NCBI GenBank assembly: GCA_035041965.1
Contig: JAPYMA010000525.1
Location: forward strand, 1 to 64,000
Reading direction: 5' to 3'
DNA length: 64,000 bases
From: Anisakis pegreffii
Lineage: Eukaryota; Nematoda; Chromadorea; Rhabditida; Anisakidae
Shown: in pieces, positions 14,755-53,700 of the stretch
How the letters are laid out: the number at the start of each line of letters is the position of its first letter
Position numbering within the stretch: the stretch's first letter is position 1
The notes under the pieces: model-generated
Databases searched by the model: none
Seen by the model: only the letters and a program-made list of their open reading frames with translations
What the model was told of the DNA's origin: nothing
Program-made: the position numbers and the translations under genes

Positions 14755-14759
14755 GTCGG
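14755..14759. repeat. Target-site duplication, left (GTCGG)
   Basis: GTCGG directly precedes the 5' LTR and recurs at 18500-18504 directly after the 3' LTR. This fixes both element ends and shows a single integrase-type insertion. Confidence 0.92.
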
Positions 14760-15109
14760 TGTCGCGATTATCGCGATATTAAATGGAGGATTGTGATTGA
14801 TTACTATGGATCAGAGATTATTTCTGTTTTATAAAGTTATTTTGGGATCAACACCGACAAACGACGATCATAAATTACGTCAGTGTTCAATGATCACGAC
14901 AGAGGCTATCTTCACATAAAATATGGCTATCAAATATCACAATAAAATGGAACAATTGGATTAAATAAAGATAATGGCAATGCACTCTTCATCAGAGATC
15001 ACTTCTCGGCACAAGTAATTCTTATAAATGTTTAAATTTCAAGGCATTCGGATAACTTTCGATTTTACATACTCATGGACCAAAGACCGCCACGCCCGTC
15101 GTCTCGAAG

Positions 15110-15116
15110 TATAAAA
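15110..15116 (+). promoter_or_regulatory. TATA box of the LTR promoter
   Basis: TATAAAA in the sequence AAGTATAAAAGGATGG, the best core-promoter match in the LTR; the 3' LTR copy is at 18107-18113. The start site about 25-30 bp downstream is inferred. Confidence 0.6.
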
Positions 15117-15434
15117 GGATGGAGTTGGCACGAAATCTTCATTTTTGTGATCCAATACTTTTTACATTGATATTGATATTTATATTCAATACTTTATGCT
15201 TTATACTTTATATTAGTATACGTAAATTTATGGAGTAATATTTCTAAATTTGATTATTAATCTTGATATGATCAGTTCTTTTATTTGATATTGTTATCAA
15301 CATTTCTCCTTATTATGGTTTATTATTATTGTTAGTGTTCGTTGCGATTTATATTATTATTATTATTATCATTATTGTTTTCTTATTGTTGATATGATAT
15401 GATCGCTATTTTTGAACGTTATTATTGTATGCAA

Positions 15435-15456
15435 GGTTTAATTACCCAAGTTTGAG
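15435..15456 (+). ncRNA. Embedded SL1 spliced-leader sequence with splice donor (5' LTR copy)
   Basis: All 22 positions match the nematode SL1 leader, which begins GGTTTAATTACC and ends AAGTTTGAG. It is followed directly by GTAATT, so the leader/donor junction of SL RNA (GAG before GTAA) is kept. AATTACC and GGTAATT can pair around it, like the first stem of SL RNA. The Sm-site region and 3' stems of a real SL RNA gene are not seen in the 46 bases left before the LTR end. It is therefore a leader exon plus donor, not a whole SL RNA gene. Confidence 0.9.
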
Positions 15457-15502
15457 GTAATTGACTAATAAACAATTGTTGACAACTCGACAATTCGTCA
15501 CA

Positions 15503-15522
15503 TGGTGCCCGAGGTGAGGTAC
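15503..15522 (+). other. Primer-binding-site candidate
   Basis: Sequence immediately after the 5' LTR begins TGGTGCCCGAGGTGAGG. The leading TGG would pair with the CCA of a tRNA 3' end, as in most LTR elements. I did not assign the tRNA. Confidence 0.65.
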
Positions 15523-15709: not shown

Positions 15710-17452
15710 ATGACGTCATTGGGCATCAGAAAGTCCCTTGACTTCAATCGCAGAAAATTGAGCAAGGCATTGACGAGCCTTCCAAAATGCGATGAACATG
15801 TTAGAAGCATTGACGAACTAGATTCGCGAAAGCTAAGCGTTAGGATCGCGCTAAATACGTTAACCACTAAAGTCCAACTTCTCCGTGAGAAGAATGAAGA
15901 ATGGATGAAATTAATGGACGAGATGAGTGGGGAGAAGAGAGAGAGAGAAGAGGAGCTTTATGAAAGCTACACCTCAAGGCCAGGGAATTTTCTTGAGGTC
16001 GTGAACGATGCCGAAGATAGTATGATCTACCTAGAGGCGAGATTAACAGAAACAATTCGTGAAAGACTGTTGAGACTGAATGTTAATAAGAGTGCCGCAC
16101 CAGCACAACCGACAGAACTTATGATGAGTGTAAGCTTACCAGCTGTATCACTCCCGAAACTTGACGGCAATGCTCAAACAGTTACTACACTCACCGTGAG
16201 TACACAGACAGAGAGCCGTGATAAAGCAGCAAAGCGCTGTGAATTATGCAACGGGCTCCACTTCGCCGATCAGTGCATGAAATATTTACGTGTTGATGAG
16301 AGGAAAAACCAACTGGCGGATCTTCGACGATGTTTTCGGTGTATGAAAAATGGACATCGGAGCTATCGATGTCAATACAATCGCCGATGTTATTTTTGCA
16401 ATGGTGATCATCATCAAGCCCTCTGTTCAAGACGGGAGGAGATTAATAATTCATGGCAGTTATGGCCACCGATGAGAAGACAAACGAAAGTGCAATCGAA
16501 TAGCAATTACGGGCACAGAGGTTTAAAACTGCTGCGAAATACGAGTTATCGAAATCGTGGGACAGAACTCAGTGGGTCCGAACGGCGACGAGGTGAAACG
16601 CAGAATATTTGTCCACAACCGTACAATGGTGCGTCAAGCTTACAAAATGACGCAATTAATGCAGTGTCCAGCAAGAAATTGAATCCAGCTGCTCGAGAAT
16701 TTATTCCTCGCCGACGAATCTTGATTCAAATGAAGCATGTTGAATCAAAGCAAACAGATTGCGGTAATGGGATAAAAACGGTCAATTATTTGGTTATCAA
16801 CGGACCAGACGGTATAAAAAAGGAGAAGAATGTTTATCAGACGACTTTGAAAGTACATGATCGAGCAAAGGTCACTTCAAGAGACCAACATCGACAATCC
16901 AACAAAATGAAGGCAACGATTGGAGAGATAGAAAAACGAATGCTGGCAGTAATCAGTCAGTGGAAACTCGGCTTGATCGGCCTAGCGATGAGGCTACTAG
17001 TCGTCGGAACTGTCGCCGGCTTTATTTATTTTCATACATGCAAATGGGCATGGACATGGTTGTGTCCGCGCAGGTTGCCTTGGACGGAGACGATAGAACA
17101 AGTGCGGACGCAGACGTGCAGATCGCTGCGCCATAAACGAGCGTCGAATAGTCGTGAGGGGAATGGAAGAATGGACGAACCGAAGCATCGAACCTCGATG
17201 TGGAGACCTATGCAGAAGGAACGAGCGTGTCAAGGAACTCTAACGGACGCGAACGAATCAGCTGAACAGATATGCATGCAGACGTGGAGGCCAATGGAGC
17301 AGAAACGAACACATCGAGAACTCATAAAGGAAATTGACGAATCTCGTGAACCAGATCAGATATCGAGCAAACCGCCTTTGTGGCATAACGTTAAAGCAAT
17401 AAAGCTTCTGCAAATATCAACCAACCACGACAATCAAACAACGGAGTTGTGA
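15710..17452 (+). CDS. Gag-like protein with three zinc knuckles and a C-terminal hydrophobic segment (580 aa)
   Basis: Single uninterrupted ORF between the LTRs; the ATG at 15710 is the first in frame and lies about 200 bp after the 5' LTR. The N-terminal half is charged and helical. Three CCHC knuckles follow: about 177-189 (CELCNGLHFADQC), 208-221 (CFRCMKNGHRSYRC) and 227-239 (CYFCNGDHHQALC), a triplet known from BEL/Pao-type Gag proteins that bind RNA during particle assembly. A strongly hydrophobic stretch at about 418-452 (LLVVGTVAGFIYFHTC, then Trp/Cys-rich) is unusual for Gag. It could be a remnant of a downstream membrane-protein frame fused by an internal deletion that removed pol. 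The tail is polar with repeated WRPM-type motifs. No pol motifs are present. Recent insertion and an open frame suggest it may still be expressed. Confidence 0.85.
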   Translation: MTSLGIRKSLDFNRRKLSKALTSLPKCDEHVRSIDELDSRKLSVRIALNTLTTKVQLLREKNEEWMKLMDEMSGEKREREEELYESYTSRPGNFLEVVNDAEDSMIYLEARLTETIRERLLRLNVNKSAAPAQPTELMMSVSLPAVSLPKLDGNAQTVTTLTVSTQTESRDKAAKRCELCNGLHFADQCMKYLRVDERKNQLADLRRCFRCMKNGHRSYRCQYNRRCYFCNGDHHQALCSRREEINNSWQLWPPMRRQTKVQSNSNYGHRGLKLLRNTSYRNRGTELSGSERRRGETQNICPQPYNGASSLQNDAINAVSSKKLNPAAREFIPRRRILIQMKHVESKQTDCGNGIKTVNYLVINGPDGIKKEKNVYQTTLKVHDRAKVTSRDQHRQSNKMKATIGEIEKRMLAVISQWKLGLIGLAMRLLVVGTVAGFIYFHTCKWAWTWLCPRRLPWTETIEQVRTQTCRSLRHKRASNSREGNGRMDEPKHRTSMWRPMQKERACQGTLTDANESAEQICMQTWRPMEQKRTHRELIKEIDESREPDQISSKPPLWHNVKAIKLLQISTNHDNQTTEL

Positions 17453-17756: not shown

Positions 17757-18499
17757 TGTCGCGATTATCGCGATATTAAATGGAGGATTGTGATTGATTA
17801 CTATGGATCAGAGATTATCTCTGTTTTATAAAGTTATTTTGGGATCAACACCGACAAACGACGATCATAAATTACGTCAGTGTTCAATGATCACGACAGA
17901 GGCTATCTTCACATAAAATATGGCTATCAAATATCACAATAAAATGGAACAATTGGATTAAATAAAGATAATGGCAATGCACTCTTCATCAGAGATCACT
18001 TCTCGGCACAAGTAATTCTTATAAATGTTTAGATTTCAAGGCATTCGGATAACTTCCGATTTTACATACTCATGGACCAAAGACCGCCACGCCCGTCGTC
18101 TCGAAGTATAAAAGGATGGAGTTGGCACGAAATCTTCATTTTTGTGATCCAATACTTTTTACATTGATATTGATATTTATATTCAATACTTTATGCTTTA
18201 TACTTTATATTAGTATACGTAAATTTATGGAGTAATATTTCTAAATTTGATTATTAATCTTGATATGATCAGTTCTTTTATTTGATATTGTTATCAACAT
18301 TTCTCCTTATTATGGTTTATTATTATTGTTAGTGTTCGTTGCGATTTATATTATTATTATTATTATCATTATTGTTATCTTATTGTTGATATGATATGAT
18401 CGCTATTTTTGAACGTTATTATTGTATGCAAGGTTTAATTACCCAAGTTTGAGGTAATTGACTAATAAACAATTGTTGACAACTCGACAATTCGTCACA
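17757..18499 (+). repeat. 3' LTR
   Basis: 743 bp, aligned base for base with the 5' LTR at a constant offset of 2,997 with about four substitutions and no gap. It carries the second SL1 copy (18432-18453), TATAAAA at 18107 and AATAAA at 18464. Confidence 0.92.
18432..18453 (+). ncRNA. Embedded SL1 spliced-leader sequence with splice donor (3' LTR copy)
   Basis: Identical to the copy at 15435-15456, including the following GTAATT. Conservation is expected from the youth of the insertion and does not by itself show selection. Confidence 0.9.
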
Positions 18500-18504
18500 G
18501 TCGG
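18500..18504. repeat. Target-site duplication, right (GTCGG)
   Basis: Matches 14755-14759 exactly. Confidence 0.92.
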
Positions 18505-50700: not shown

Positions 50701-53700
50701 CTCAATAATTCCATCAGCGATAACTGCTGCAGTTGCGGTTTTAGATGAAGATACTTTTGATACCTTCAAAATGTAATGCTTTTTACATTTCTTTATCATT
50801 TGGGTCTTCGTAATTTTTATTATTTAGAGAATATGAAAATGAACCGAATAATGATCAATTCGAAATTAAATATGTCTGATGCAATAGCGTTTTCCGAGGG
50901 GGGGGAGAGGACGCAAAATGGTTTGGCCCAGAAAAACAGTTGAATTTTGAGGCGAATTTGTCTAGGTTTATTTCTTTCTTCCTTCTCCCTTCTATGCTTT
51001 CTTTGCCCACTTCCTTATTCCTTCCCTCTGTTCTCCCCTTTCTTGCGACTTTCAGGAGTGAAGCGCGACACCCCTGCGCCCTCGCACTGATCTGATGATA
51101 TGCTAACGAGCTGTTCGCACCACGATTGCAACGTTGTGATGTTCATTATGGGCAACCGATGCATATTCACCAATACAGCTCTTAACGAGTTTTTCAATCG
51201 CCTCATTATACTTCATGAAAATTGCATATAGAATATATATGATGAATAGACTGAGTGCCTCAAACCAACGAATCTGAAAGCAAATTAGCCATTTCAACTG
51301 AAGAGATGATGAACATGCTGAATTTAGAAACAAATGAGACTTTTAGATGGTGCTATATAATAGATTGAAGTTTTTCAAAAATTCATATCACTTCAGCTGT
51401 TCAAAATGCACATGAATTATGGACAGAATTATTGAACACAGTTCGTTTTTGAGGGAACTGCTGACAAATCATTGATTTTTTATAAATGAAAAAATCAAAA
51501 ATTCGGTTCTAAAGAGAAGCGATAGCAGAGAAATAAAAAACAGAAAACCTTTTCGTCAAGAAAGAAGATAACCAACATCAGTAATGCAATAATATAAAAT
51601 GCAACATCTCTGCAATTAACGATACAGATATTAAGAAGGAAGTAAATGTAAAGGAATCGGTGCATGATTAAATTCATCAACTTCTTGTGAAACTTATACG
51701 TTCATGAGAAACACCCAAAGAGTTTTGTGAACTATTCCAGCTATTAGAATTAACGTGATATGGAGATATGCAAACATTGTAGAACAACGATGAGTTATCC
51801 ATTGCAAGAATTATTACTTTTGGAAAGGTGAATGTAAAAAAGGTGGTTTTATCATCAACCTGTGAGCGAACTACACGTCAAAACGTGACATATTCAAGTG
51901 ATCAAGTTCTAATTGATGTGCTAAATCAGCCTGATAGTTGCAATTGCTGCATGGTCGTTATATGAATTCATAGCTTGCGAAGGAGAGGTCGTTATATGAA
52001 TTCATAGCTTGCGAAGGAGAGGTCGTTATATGAATTCATAGCTTGCGAAGGAGAGGTCGTTATATGAATTCATAGCTTGCGAAGGAGAGGTCGTTATATG
52101 AATTCATAGCTTGCGAAGGAGAGGTCGTTATATGAATTCATAGCTTGCGAAGGAGAGGTCGTTATATGAATTCATAGCTTGCGAAGGAGAGGTCGTTATA
52201 TGAATTCATAGCTTGCGAAGGAGAGGTCGTTATATGAATTCATAGCTTGCGAAGGAGAGGTCGTTATATGAATTCATAGCTTGCGAAGGAGAGGTCGTTA
52301 TATGAATTCATAGCTTGCGAAGGAGAGGTCGTTATATGAATTCATAGCTTGCGAAGGAGAGGTCGTTATATGAATTCATAGCTTGCGAAGGAGAGGTCGT
52401 TATATGAATTCATAGCTTGCGAAGGAGAGGTCGTTATATGAATTCATAGCTTGCGAAGGAGAGGTCGTTATATGAATTCATAGCTTGCGAAGGAGAGGTC
52501 GTTATATGAATTCATAGCTTGCGAAGGAGAGGTCGTTATATGAATTCATAGCTTGCGAAGGAGAGGTCGTTATATGAATTCATAGCTTGCGAAGGAGAGG
52601 TCGTTATATGAATTCATAGCTTGCGAAGGAGAGGTCGTTATATGAATTCATAGCTTGCGAAGGAGAGGTCGTTATATGAATTCATAGCTTGCGAAGGAGA
52701 GGTCGTTATATGAATTCATAGCTTGCGAAGGAGAGGTCGTTATATGAATTCATAGCTTGCGAAGGAGAGGTCGTTATATGAATTCATAGCTTGCGAAGGA
52801 GAGGTCGTTATATGAATTCATAGCTTGCGAAGGAGAGGTCGTTATATGAAAACCAATAAACAACTTTTCATGAAATTTTCACACTTTCCATGTGCCACGA
52901 AATAATCTGGTTAATGTTACGCATCAAAGCACACATTGGCTGTGAATATATAGTTGCACTAAGCATTCTATCGGAAACGCTTCACAGAAGTTATTGCGTG
53001 TCATTACTACTGTTATCGATATATTGTTTCCTCGCAAGCCATGCGATGATTACAGTCAAGAAAGACCAAAATGAGGAAAAAAACCTGAATAAAGGCCACC
53101 ATGTTAGGTGAAGAACACCATGTGAAAAAATGGTGCAGCACGCGAGAACGCAAAGAATGTTGAAAGTGGCACTGCCTGGGAATAGTGAAACACATTTAAA
53201 TTACTTTTTTTTTCGCAGTGATAACATTCAACAGTAACATTCAGTTCACTCAAAAAGCAAAAAGCTAATGATGATGATTCGAAAATTGATAGTAACAAAT
53301 TTTCGAATTACAACTATATTGTATCTATGTATTCCAATGATCTATCACCAACCAACGATTGTTCCAATGCCAACATTGTTTTGTGCGATAAAAACGCCTA
53401 TCACAGATGTGAAGAATTCCGGCGCAGAACCACCAGCCGCCATGAAAGTCGCACCTTGAATCAAACAAAAATAATCAATGATCACTAAGAATTGAAGTTG
53501 CATTCATAAGCTTATATTTTTCAGAGTTCATAGTTGATGACGTATGGAATACCAATGTGAGGTCACTTGTTACTCTGATAGAAGTTATTCCGAGATTCGA
53601 ACGGTACTATTGCGATGGTTGACCGAAAAGTAAAAATCTAGCAATAATTTTTGAATGTACGGAAGAGAACGCTCTCTTGCTCGATTGTTCCTTTTGCTTG

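Follow-up and report, generated by a model that had tools for sequence, protein, structure and literature searches.

In Brugia malayi, 120 intrinsic copies of the spliced leader SL1 have been described, 60 of them no more than 1 kb away from PAO elements; certain elements have two SL1s on the same strand, and Foster et al. (2020, PMC7181701) infer that leaders were joined to expressed elements, which then integrated. SL1 beside Pao elements is thus known from B. malayi as well as from the genome studied here; the accessible part of that report calls the SL1s "flanking", and makes no mention of a position at the U3/R border inside the LTR, of mosaic LTRs or of renewal of the leader. The statement in an earlier, first-pass annotation of the present locus that no LTR element with SL1 had been described overlooks that report (Foster et al. 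2020, PMC7181701). In Cer1, a Gypsy/Ty3 element of C. elegans, molecules of the spliced 2.4-kb mRNA both bearing and lacking SL1 were detected, and the 8-kb gag-pol RNA did not undergo trans-splicing at that site (PMC3315495); RNA of an LTR element receives SL1 in this case too, but SL1 in the Cer1 LTR goes unmentioned in the accessible text. In Hydra, about 30% of Iso-Seq reads from transposable elements bear a spliced leader, with no mention, in the accessible text, of spliced leaders in genomic LTRs (PMC12220107). In the accessible text of the Brugia, Cer1 and Hydra papers, SL1 is not described at the U3/R border. An R region defined by SL1 is, to our knowledge, not part of the description of the BEL/Pao clade; Ascaris Tas belongs to the related literature, as reportedly do older spliced leader papers on Brugia and Onchocerca by Takacs (1988) and Zeng (1990).

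The window analysed here is a 64,000-nt stretch of Anisakis pegreffii DNA that contains an LTR element with an exact SL1 in each of its two LTRs, as the first-pass annotation had stated (Table 1). Apart from these two copies, no SL1 with up to three mismatches was found in the window. The match is not due to chance, an origin that was rejected because SL1 appeared in none of 100 shuffles of the window and a reversed-pattern control gave 0 matches in 122.7 Mb. That the window LTR holds a whole SL RNA gene was also rejected, as the window had no match to SL RNA (RF00198) at the gathering score; among LTR copies, the two that Rfam matched to SL1 RNA reached 30.5 and 26.3 bits, against a cut-off of 75 and a score of 78 for array copies of the gene.

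Table 1. Coordinates of features of the SL1-bearing element in the window
Feature	Position	Strand	Remarks
5' LTR	14760..15502	+	743 bp, ends TGT...ACA; from self-alignment
3' LTR	17757..18499	+	743 bp, ends TGT...ACA
Target-site duplication	14755..14759 and 18500..18504		GTCGG, 5 bp
SL1 22-mer of 5' LTR	15435..15456	+	exact, 22/22; followed by GTAATT
SL1 22-mer of 3' LTR	18432..18453	+	exact, 22/22; followed by GTAATT
TATAAAA box, U3 of 5' LTR	15110..15116	+	325 nt upstream of SL1
TATAAAA box, 3' LTR	18107..18113	+	
CG-bearing stretch	15390..15414	+	-45 to -20 from SL1
AATAAA polyadenylation signal, 5' LTR	15467..15472	+	11 nt downstream of SL1
AATAAA, 3' LTR	18464..18469	+	
Predicted primer-binding site	15503..15520 (extent approximate)	+	starts TGGTGCCC; abuts LTR end
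580-aa ORF	15710..17452	+	

The two LTRs differ at 4 mismatches in a 744-bp self-alignment and, as in BEL/Pao elements, are direct repeats with TG...CA ends bordered by a short target duplication. The ORF between them has no Pfam match above the cut-off, neither to Peptidase_A17 nor to DUF1759, and no gag homologues scored in the protein database; some of its cysteines presumably form a pattern like that of zinc knuckles, as judged by eye. A relative is an element on contig C400, which has a Peptidase_A17 domain between its two SL1s. The first 668 bases of the inner DNA (675 bp aligned) are 87.6% identical to inner DNA at the 5' side of this relative, and further inner pieces, including 197 bp at 84%, match the region before the C400 3' LTR. 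At the protein level, the N-terminal part of the ORF matches its C400 counterpart at 73% over 156 aa, and residues 399-546 (30%) and 519-580 (76%) match sequence directly upstream of the C400 3' LTR. We call the window element a short, non-autonomous derivative; its assignment to BEL/Pao is made only through this relative with Peptidase_A17, a domain that had no match in the window ORF or on C383. Likeness to BEL/Pao consists of Peptidase_A17 between the SL1-bearing LTRs of relatives, DUF1759 in another lineage and the 5-bp duplication in the window. Elsewhere in the window, positions 51953-52850 hold a perfect tandem array (34-bp unit, 26.4 copies, 100% matches).

The genome set (G000; 122.66 Mb, 1740 contigs) holds 132 exact SL1s. 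SL RNA gene copies, recognised by position or flank, account for 25 of these, with 23 placed by position in three regular arrays (C14, 7; C181, 4; C1485, 12) and two more assigned by flank outside the arrays (L110, L135); the one array that was read (L003, from C14) alternates 5S rRNA and SL1 RNA (RF00198, 78 bits). For the 109 exact sites outside the three arrays, the classification covered the flanks of every site. One further exact copy lies in L089 (G000:C637, about 820-1090) among degenerate head-to-tail SL1-like units with 2-4 mismatches, apparently a satellite grown from SL1 and not LTR-like. Outside SL RNA genes and satellite, 106 exact sites remain, 96 of them distinct by their flanks; the ten sites dropped because their flanks were identical to those of another (L059, L074, L080, L081, L096, L114, L122, L128, L136 and L137) may include separate recent insertions. 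The 96 distinct sites fall into 16 upstream and 18 downstream clusters. LTRs with an internal SL1 were directly observed, by alignment, in eight upstream clusters (U0-U7), with lengths, where both ends were seen, of about 456-608, 743, 850, 972, 1031, 1275 and 1306 bp (the start of U7 was not seen) and with a distance between SL1 and the LTR end that ranges from 37 to about 854 nt. U8-U14 and U16 are small clusters or single sites whose LTR status is not proven by alignment; U8 and U9 adjoin ORFs that look gag-like by eye. Same-strand SL1s, in pairs or singly, bracket or adjoin Peptidase_A17 on C55, C57, C130, C400, C986, C382, C613 and C1688, which amounts to eight of the 43 Peptidase_A17 matches, or nine if another on C130 at about 7 kb is counted; the other matches, many of them on short contigs or broken, have no exact same-strand SL1 nearby. 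Among three ORFs scanned from other SL1 lineages, the one in L071 matched DUF1759 (2e-24).

Since counting exact sites is biased, conservation was assessed by a search with the flanks only, leaving 22 free letters between them. For family B, this search yielded 22 matches and 19 LTRs, in which SL1 was exact in 18 and had one change in 1; for family A, to which the window element belongs, it yielded 37 matches and 13 LTRs, with SL1 exact in 11 and with one change in 2. Among the first 100 of 202 matches listed for U4/U7, 7 were SL1-like, 4 exact and 3 changed. The first-pass annotation had asked whether other family members lack SL1 or carry it mutated at random, and on this point families A and B speak in favour of SL1, with weaker evidence from U4/U7; on its further question, whether SL1 and the following GTAA are conserved across the genome, SL1 is kept in many families and GTAA is not. 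A similarity search with the window LTR, which gives a lower bound because 40 of 188 candidates were scored, provided 11 loci for alignment; the 5' part of SL1 is cut or altered in L015 and L023, the SL1 stretch is missing in L017, at least one change is present in L018, L026, L028, L030, L035 and L038, and no SL1 region aligned in L033 and L027. Genome-wide, 73 copies of SL1 have one mismatch (205 minus 132), which we read as ordinary decay of old insertions. Two mutant forms recur, G16A in 3 copies, two of them on the same contig, and G2A at C82 and at one C11 site; this recurrence may weigh against renewal of SL1 in every cycle, as would be the case if a variant were inherited. A pool of variant SL RNA as the source of G16A was considered and rejected, given only 3 copies with two sharing one contig.

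Comparisons between LTRs on the two sides of SL1 identified mosaics. Fifteen pairs of LTRs, picked by eye after the mosaic pattern had been noticed, were compared over the last 200 nt of U3 (440 nt for C657 versus the window) and 46 nt of R-U5; some of the U3 identities include microsatellite gaps. Three pairs combine a nearly identical U3 with a diverged R-U5, i.e., C657 versus the window 3' LTR (439/440 and 36/47; Fisher 2e-11), C1688 versus C1733 (197/200 and 38/48; 6e-6) and C1688 versus C61 (196/200 and 38/48; 2e-5), where all p-values are post hoc and rough and where the three pairs depend on two mosaic LTRs, C657 and C1688. Differences in evolutionary rate would hardly explain these pairs. 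Four pairs are of the reverse kind, with U3 diverged and R-U5 alike: C61 versus the window (152/216 and 46/46), C361b versus the window (130/210 and 44/46), C657 versus C1688, and C1739a versus C1739b; these fit reassortment, and slower change in R-U5 could also yield them. In 8 of the 15 pairs, the difference between U3 and R-U5 was not significant (p above 0.05). U3 regions ending in GCAA are joined to a GTAATTGACTAAT-like R-U5 in the window, C180, C1321 and C1494 and to a GTAATTGGACGAAT R-U5 in C657, and U3 regions ending in GCAT are joined to the GTAATTGACTAAT-like type in C61, C1733 and C1242 and to the GTAATTGGACGAAT type in C1688; with each of two U3 types found with both R-U5 types, all four combinations are present. 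The switch point lies between the base preceding SL1 and the eighth base following it. Recombination at the start of R during minus-strand transfer is established biology of retroviruses and LTR elements, and an R with SL1 as its 5' end would be expected to produce a switch at SL1; judged by these mosaic junctions, the SL1 at 15435..15456 would be the 5' end of R in the window element.

We consider it probable that the RNA reverse-transcribed by these Pao elements starts with SL1, at the U3/R border, and that this RNA was most likely trans-spliced by the host. Among the possibilities raised in the first-pass annotation, reverse transcription of a trans-spliced RNA fits best, with the modification that R appears to start at SL1. 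Under this model, the U3 promoter would produce a precursor with a T-rich 5' outron, onto which the host would trans-splice SL1; the resulting capped RNA, with the order SL1-R-U5-...-U3-R, would be the template for reverse transcription. Minus strong-stop DNA would then end in the complement of SL1 and could transfer to the SL1-R of the element's own 3' LTR or to that of another, co-packaged family, so that SL1 would be rewritten in every cycle and double as a common landing site. More tentatively, a guild of Pao elements may use SL1 as the 5' end of R, reinstalled by trans-splicing in each cycle and hence undecaying in active lineages, as a common strand-transfer site that lets U3 and R-U5 modules reassort freely between unrelated families. 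We infer with more assurance that SL1 is the 5' end of the RNA than that trans-splicing, and not initiation of transcription, installs SL1 in each cycle.

Base composition around SL1 is consistent with such a border. The T fraction was observed to step from 0.44 to 0.21 exactly at SL1 in 20 representatives, and in 17 of 17 representatives the 100 nt preceding SL1 contained more T than the 100 nt following it (Wilcoxon 3e-4); this step resembles the passage from outron to exon, although composition could also change at a U3/R border for unrelated reasons. A polyadenylation-like hexamer was present between SL1 and the LTR end in all nine LTR copies examined from eight lineages, a count that includes TATAAA only (U4) and AGTAAA only (one B copy) and to which long stretches are expected to add chance matches. 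Variation of the base at -1, which might have signalled an RNA end, did not stand out; this base had 3 changes on 36 tree edges, which several other positions equal or exceed.

The main alternative, which we consider unlikely, is that the first G of SL1 is itself the transcription start, the LTR having copied the region where an SL RNA gene initiates; SL1 would serve as initiator or leader, with no role for trans-splicing once it had first been captured. Initiation would predict the same U3/R-U5 mosaics, and in SL RNA genes of Ascaris the SL sequence reportedly works as a promoter element within the gene (Hannon et al., 1990). All 17 lineage representatives have a CG dinucleotide in the interval from -45 to -20 relative to SL1, an interval that was selected after inspection of the data; background windows have one in a mean of 8.0 and a maximum of 12 of 17. 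This CG-bearing element may be the core promoter from which initiation at SL1 would proceed, or else an outron element. The box TATAAAAGGA, found at a variable distance (-204 to -360 from SL1) in families A, C and U4, was seen in no copy scanned from five of the eight LTR lineages and is also missing in some copies of C and U4, which also fits initiation at SL1, yet its presence upstream in three families suggests a different start. With regard to the splice site, the putative acceptor is SL1's own TTTGAG, a poor match to the nematode 3' splice-site consensus TTTTCAG, and trans-splicing is to that extent disfavoured. Against initiation stand the retention of all 22 bases across lineages whose flanks do not cluster, which goes beyond the usual need of an initiator, the sequence preceding the SL RNA gene, which by eye is not common to the LTRs, and the low Rfam scores of the LTR copies given above. 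The host leader is reproduced letter for letter across lineages, which, like the T step at SL1 and the box at variable distance, speaks for trans-splicing; on balance we regard trans-splicing as clearly the likelier of these two origins.

Less probable still is a single ancient capture of a trans-spliced RNA, after which SL1 was inherited, or kept for translation, and the true 5' end remained near the TATA box. The eight lineages could have a common ancestor, as the visible LTR starts are alike (TGTCGCGA, TGTCGTGA or TGTTGCGA), and Foster et al. (2020, PMC7181701) write, in the accessible text, that leaders were added "at some point". However, the switches are located at SL1 and not near the TATA box, the distance from SL1 to the LTR end varies as widely as described above, and the flanks of different clusters cannot be aligned while SL1 is identical, a comparison of exact sites only and thus a biased one.

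That the sequence after SL1 is a functional splice donor, with which LTR RNA would pass SL1 on to mRNAs of the host or the element, in cis or in trans, is very improbable. Of the 18 downstream clusters, 9 have GT directly after SL1 (45 of the 96 distinct sites), more than the 1/16 expected by chance, but the other 9 have AT, TG or CC there (AT in 6 clusters, 30 sites), GT is missing in 23 of 24 distinct family-B sites and the window lacks an SL RNA match at the gathering score. A conserved donor was thus rejected as a rule, the GTAATT of the window not being typical of the downstream clusters, and two proposals of the first-pass annotation do not hold generally: cis-splicing from the SL1 donor and mimicry of SL RNA both require a GT after SL1, which half of the clusters and nearly all family-B sites lack. 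Nor was support found for its argument that the GAG/GTAA junction points to an origin from SL RNA; families A and C briefly resemble SL RNA after SL1 (GTAATT and GTGATT, compared with GTAATTACA), and the base at +3 agrees with SL RNA in 2 of 18 clusters. A purine followed by T occupies +1/+2 in 15 of 18 clusters (9 GT, 6 AT), with a probability for T at +2 of 3e-8 on the assumption, not valid for some of them, that clusters are independent. An exon preference for such a dinucleotide after 3' splice sites was rejected, as it was absent at those TTTTCAG sites of the window that lie beyond the element (n=27, real splice sites or not).

If SL1 is the trans-spliced start of R, a host RNA-processing reaction would provide part of the repeat that a retroelement needs for replication, and the element would be bound to the leader sequence of its host. 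Such a mechanism would also account for scattered genomic SL1 copies in nematodes and would offer a route for exchange of modules among unrelated families; surveys that use SL1 to anchor RNA 5' ends may count SL1 that is encoded in LTRs.

Three further observations concern individual SL1-bearing elements. In the C130 element, the end of an ORF that precedes the 3' SL1 (L052:1-879) weakly matches viral fusion glycoproteins, below the cut-off (Glycoprotein_B, 2e-6; Monjiviricetes_fusion, 5e-6), and this Pao element possibly carries an env-like gene. Another SL1-bearing LTR starts about 350 bp away from a U2 snRNA match (L040:443-635, 162 bits). Finally, two family-B SL1s are found on opposite strands about 215 bp apart, at G000:C1075:48113(-) and 48328(+).
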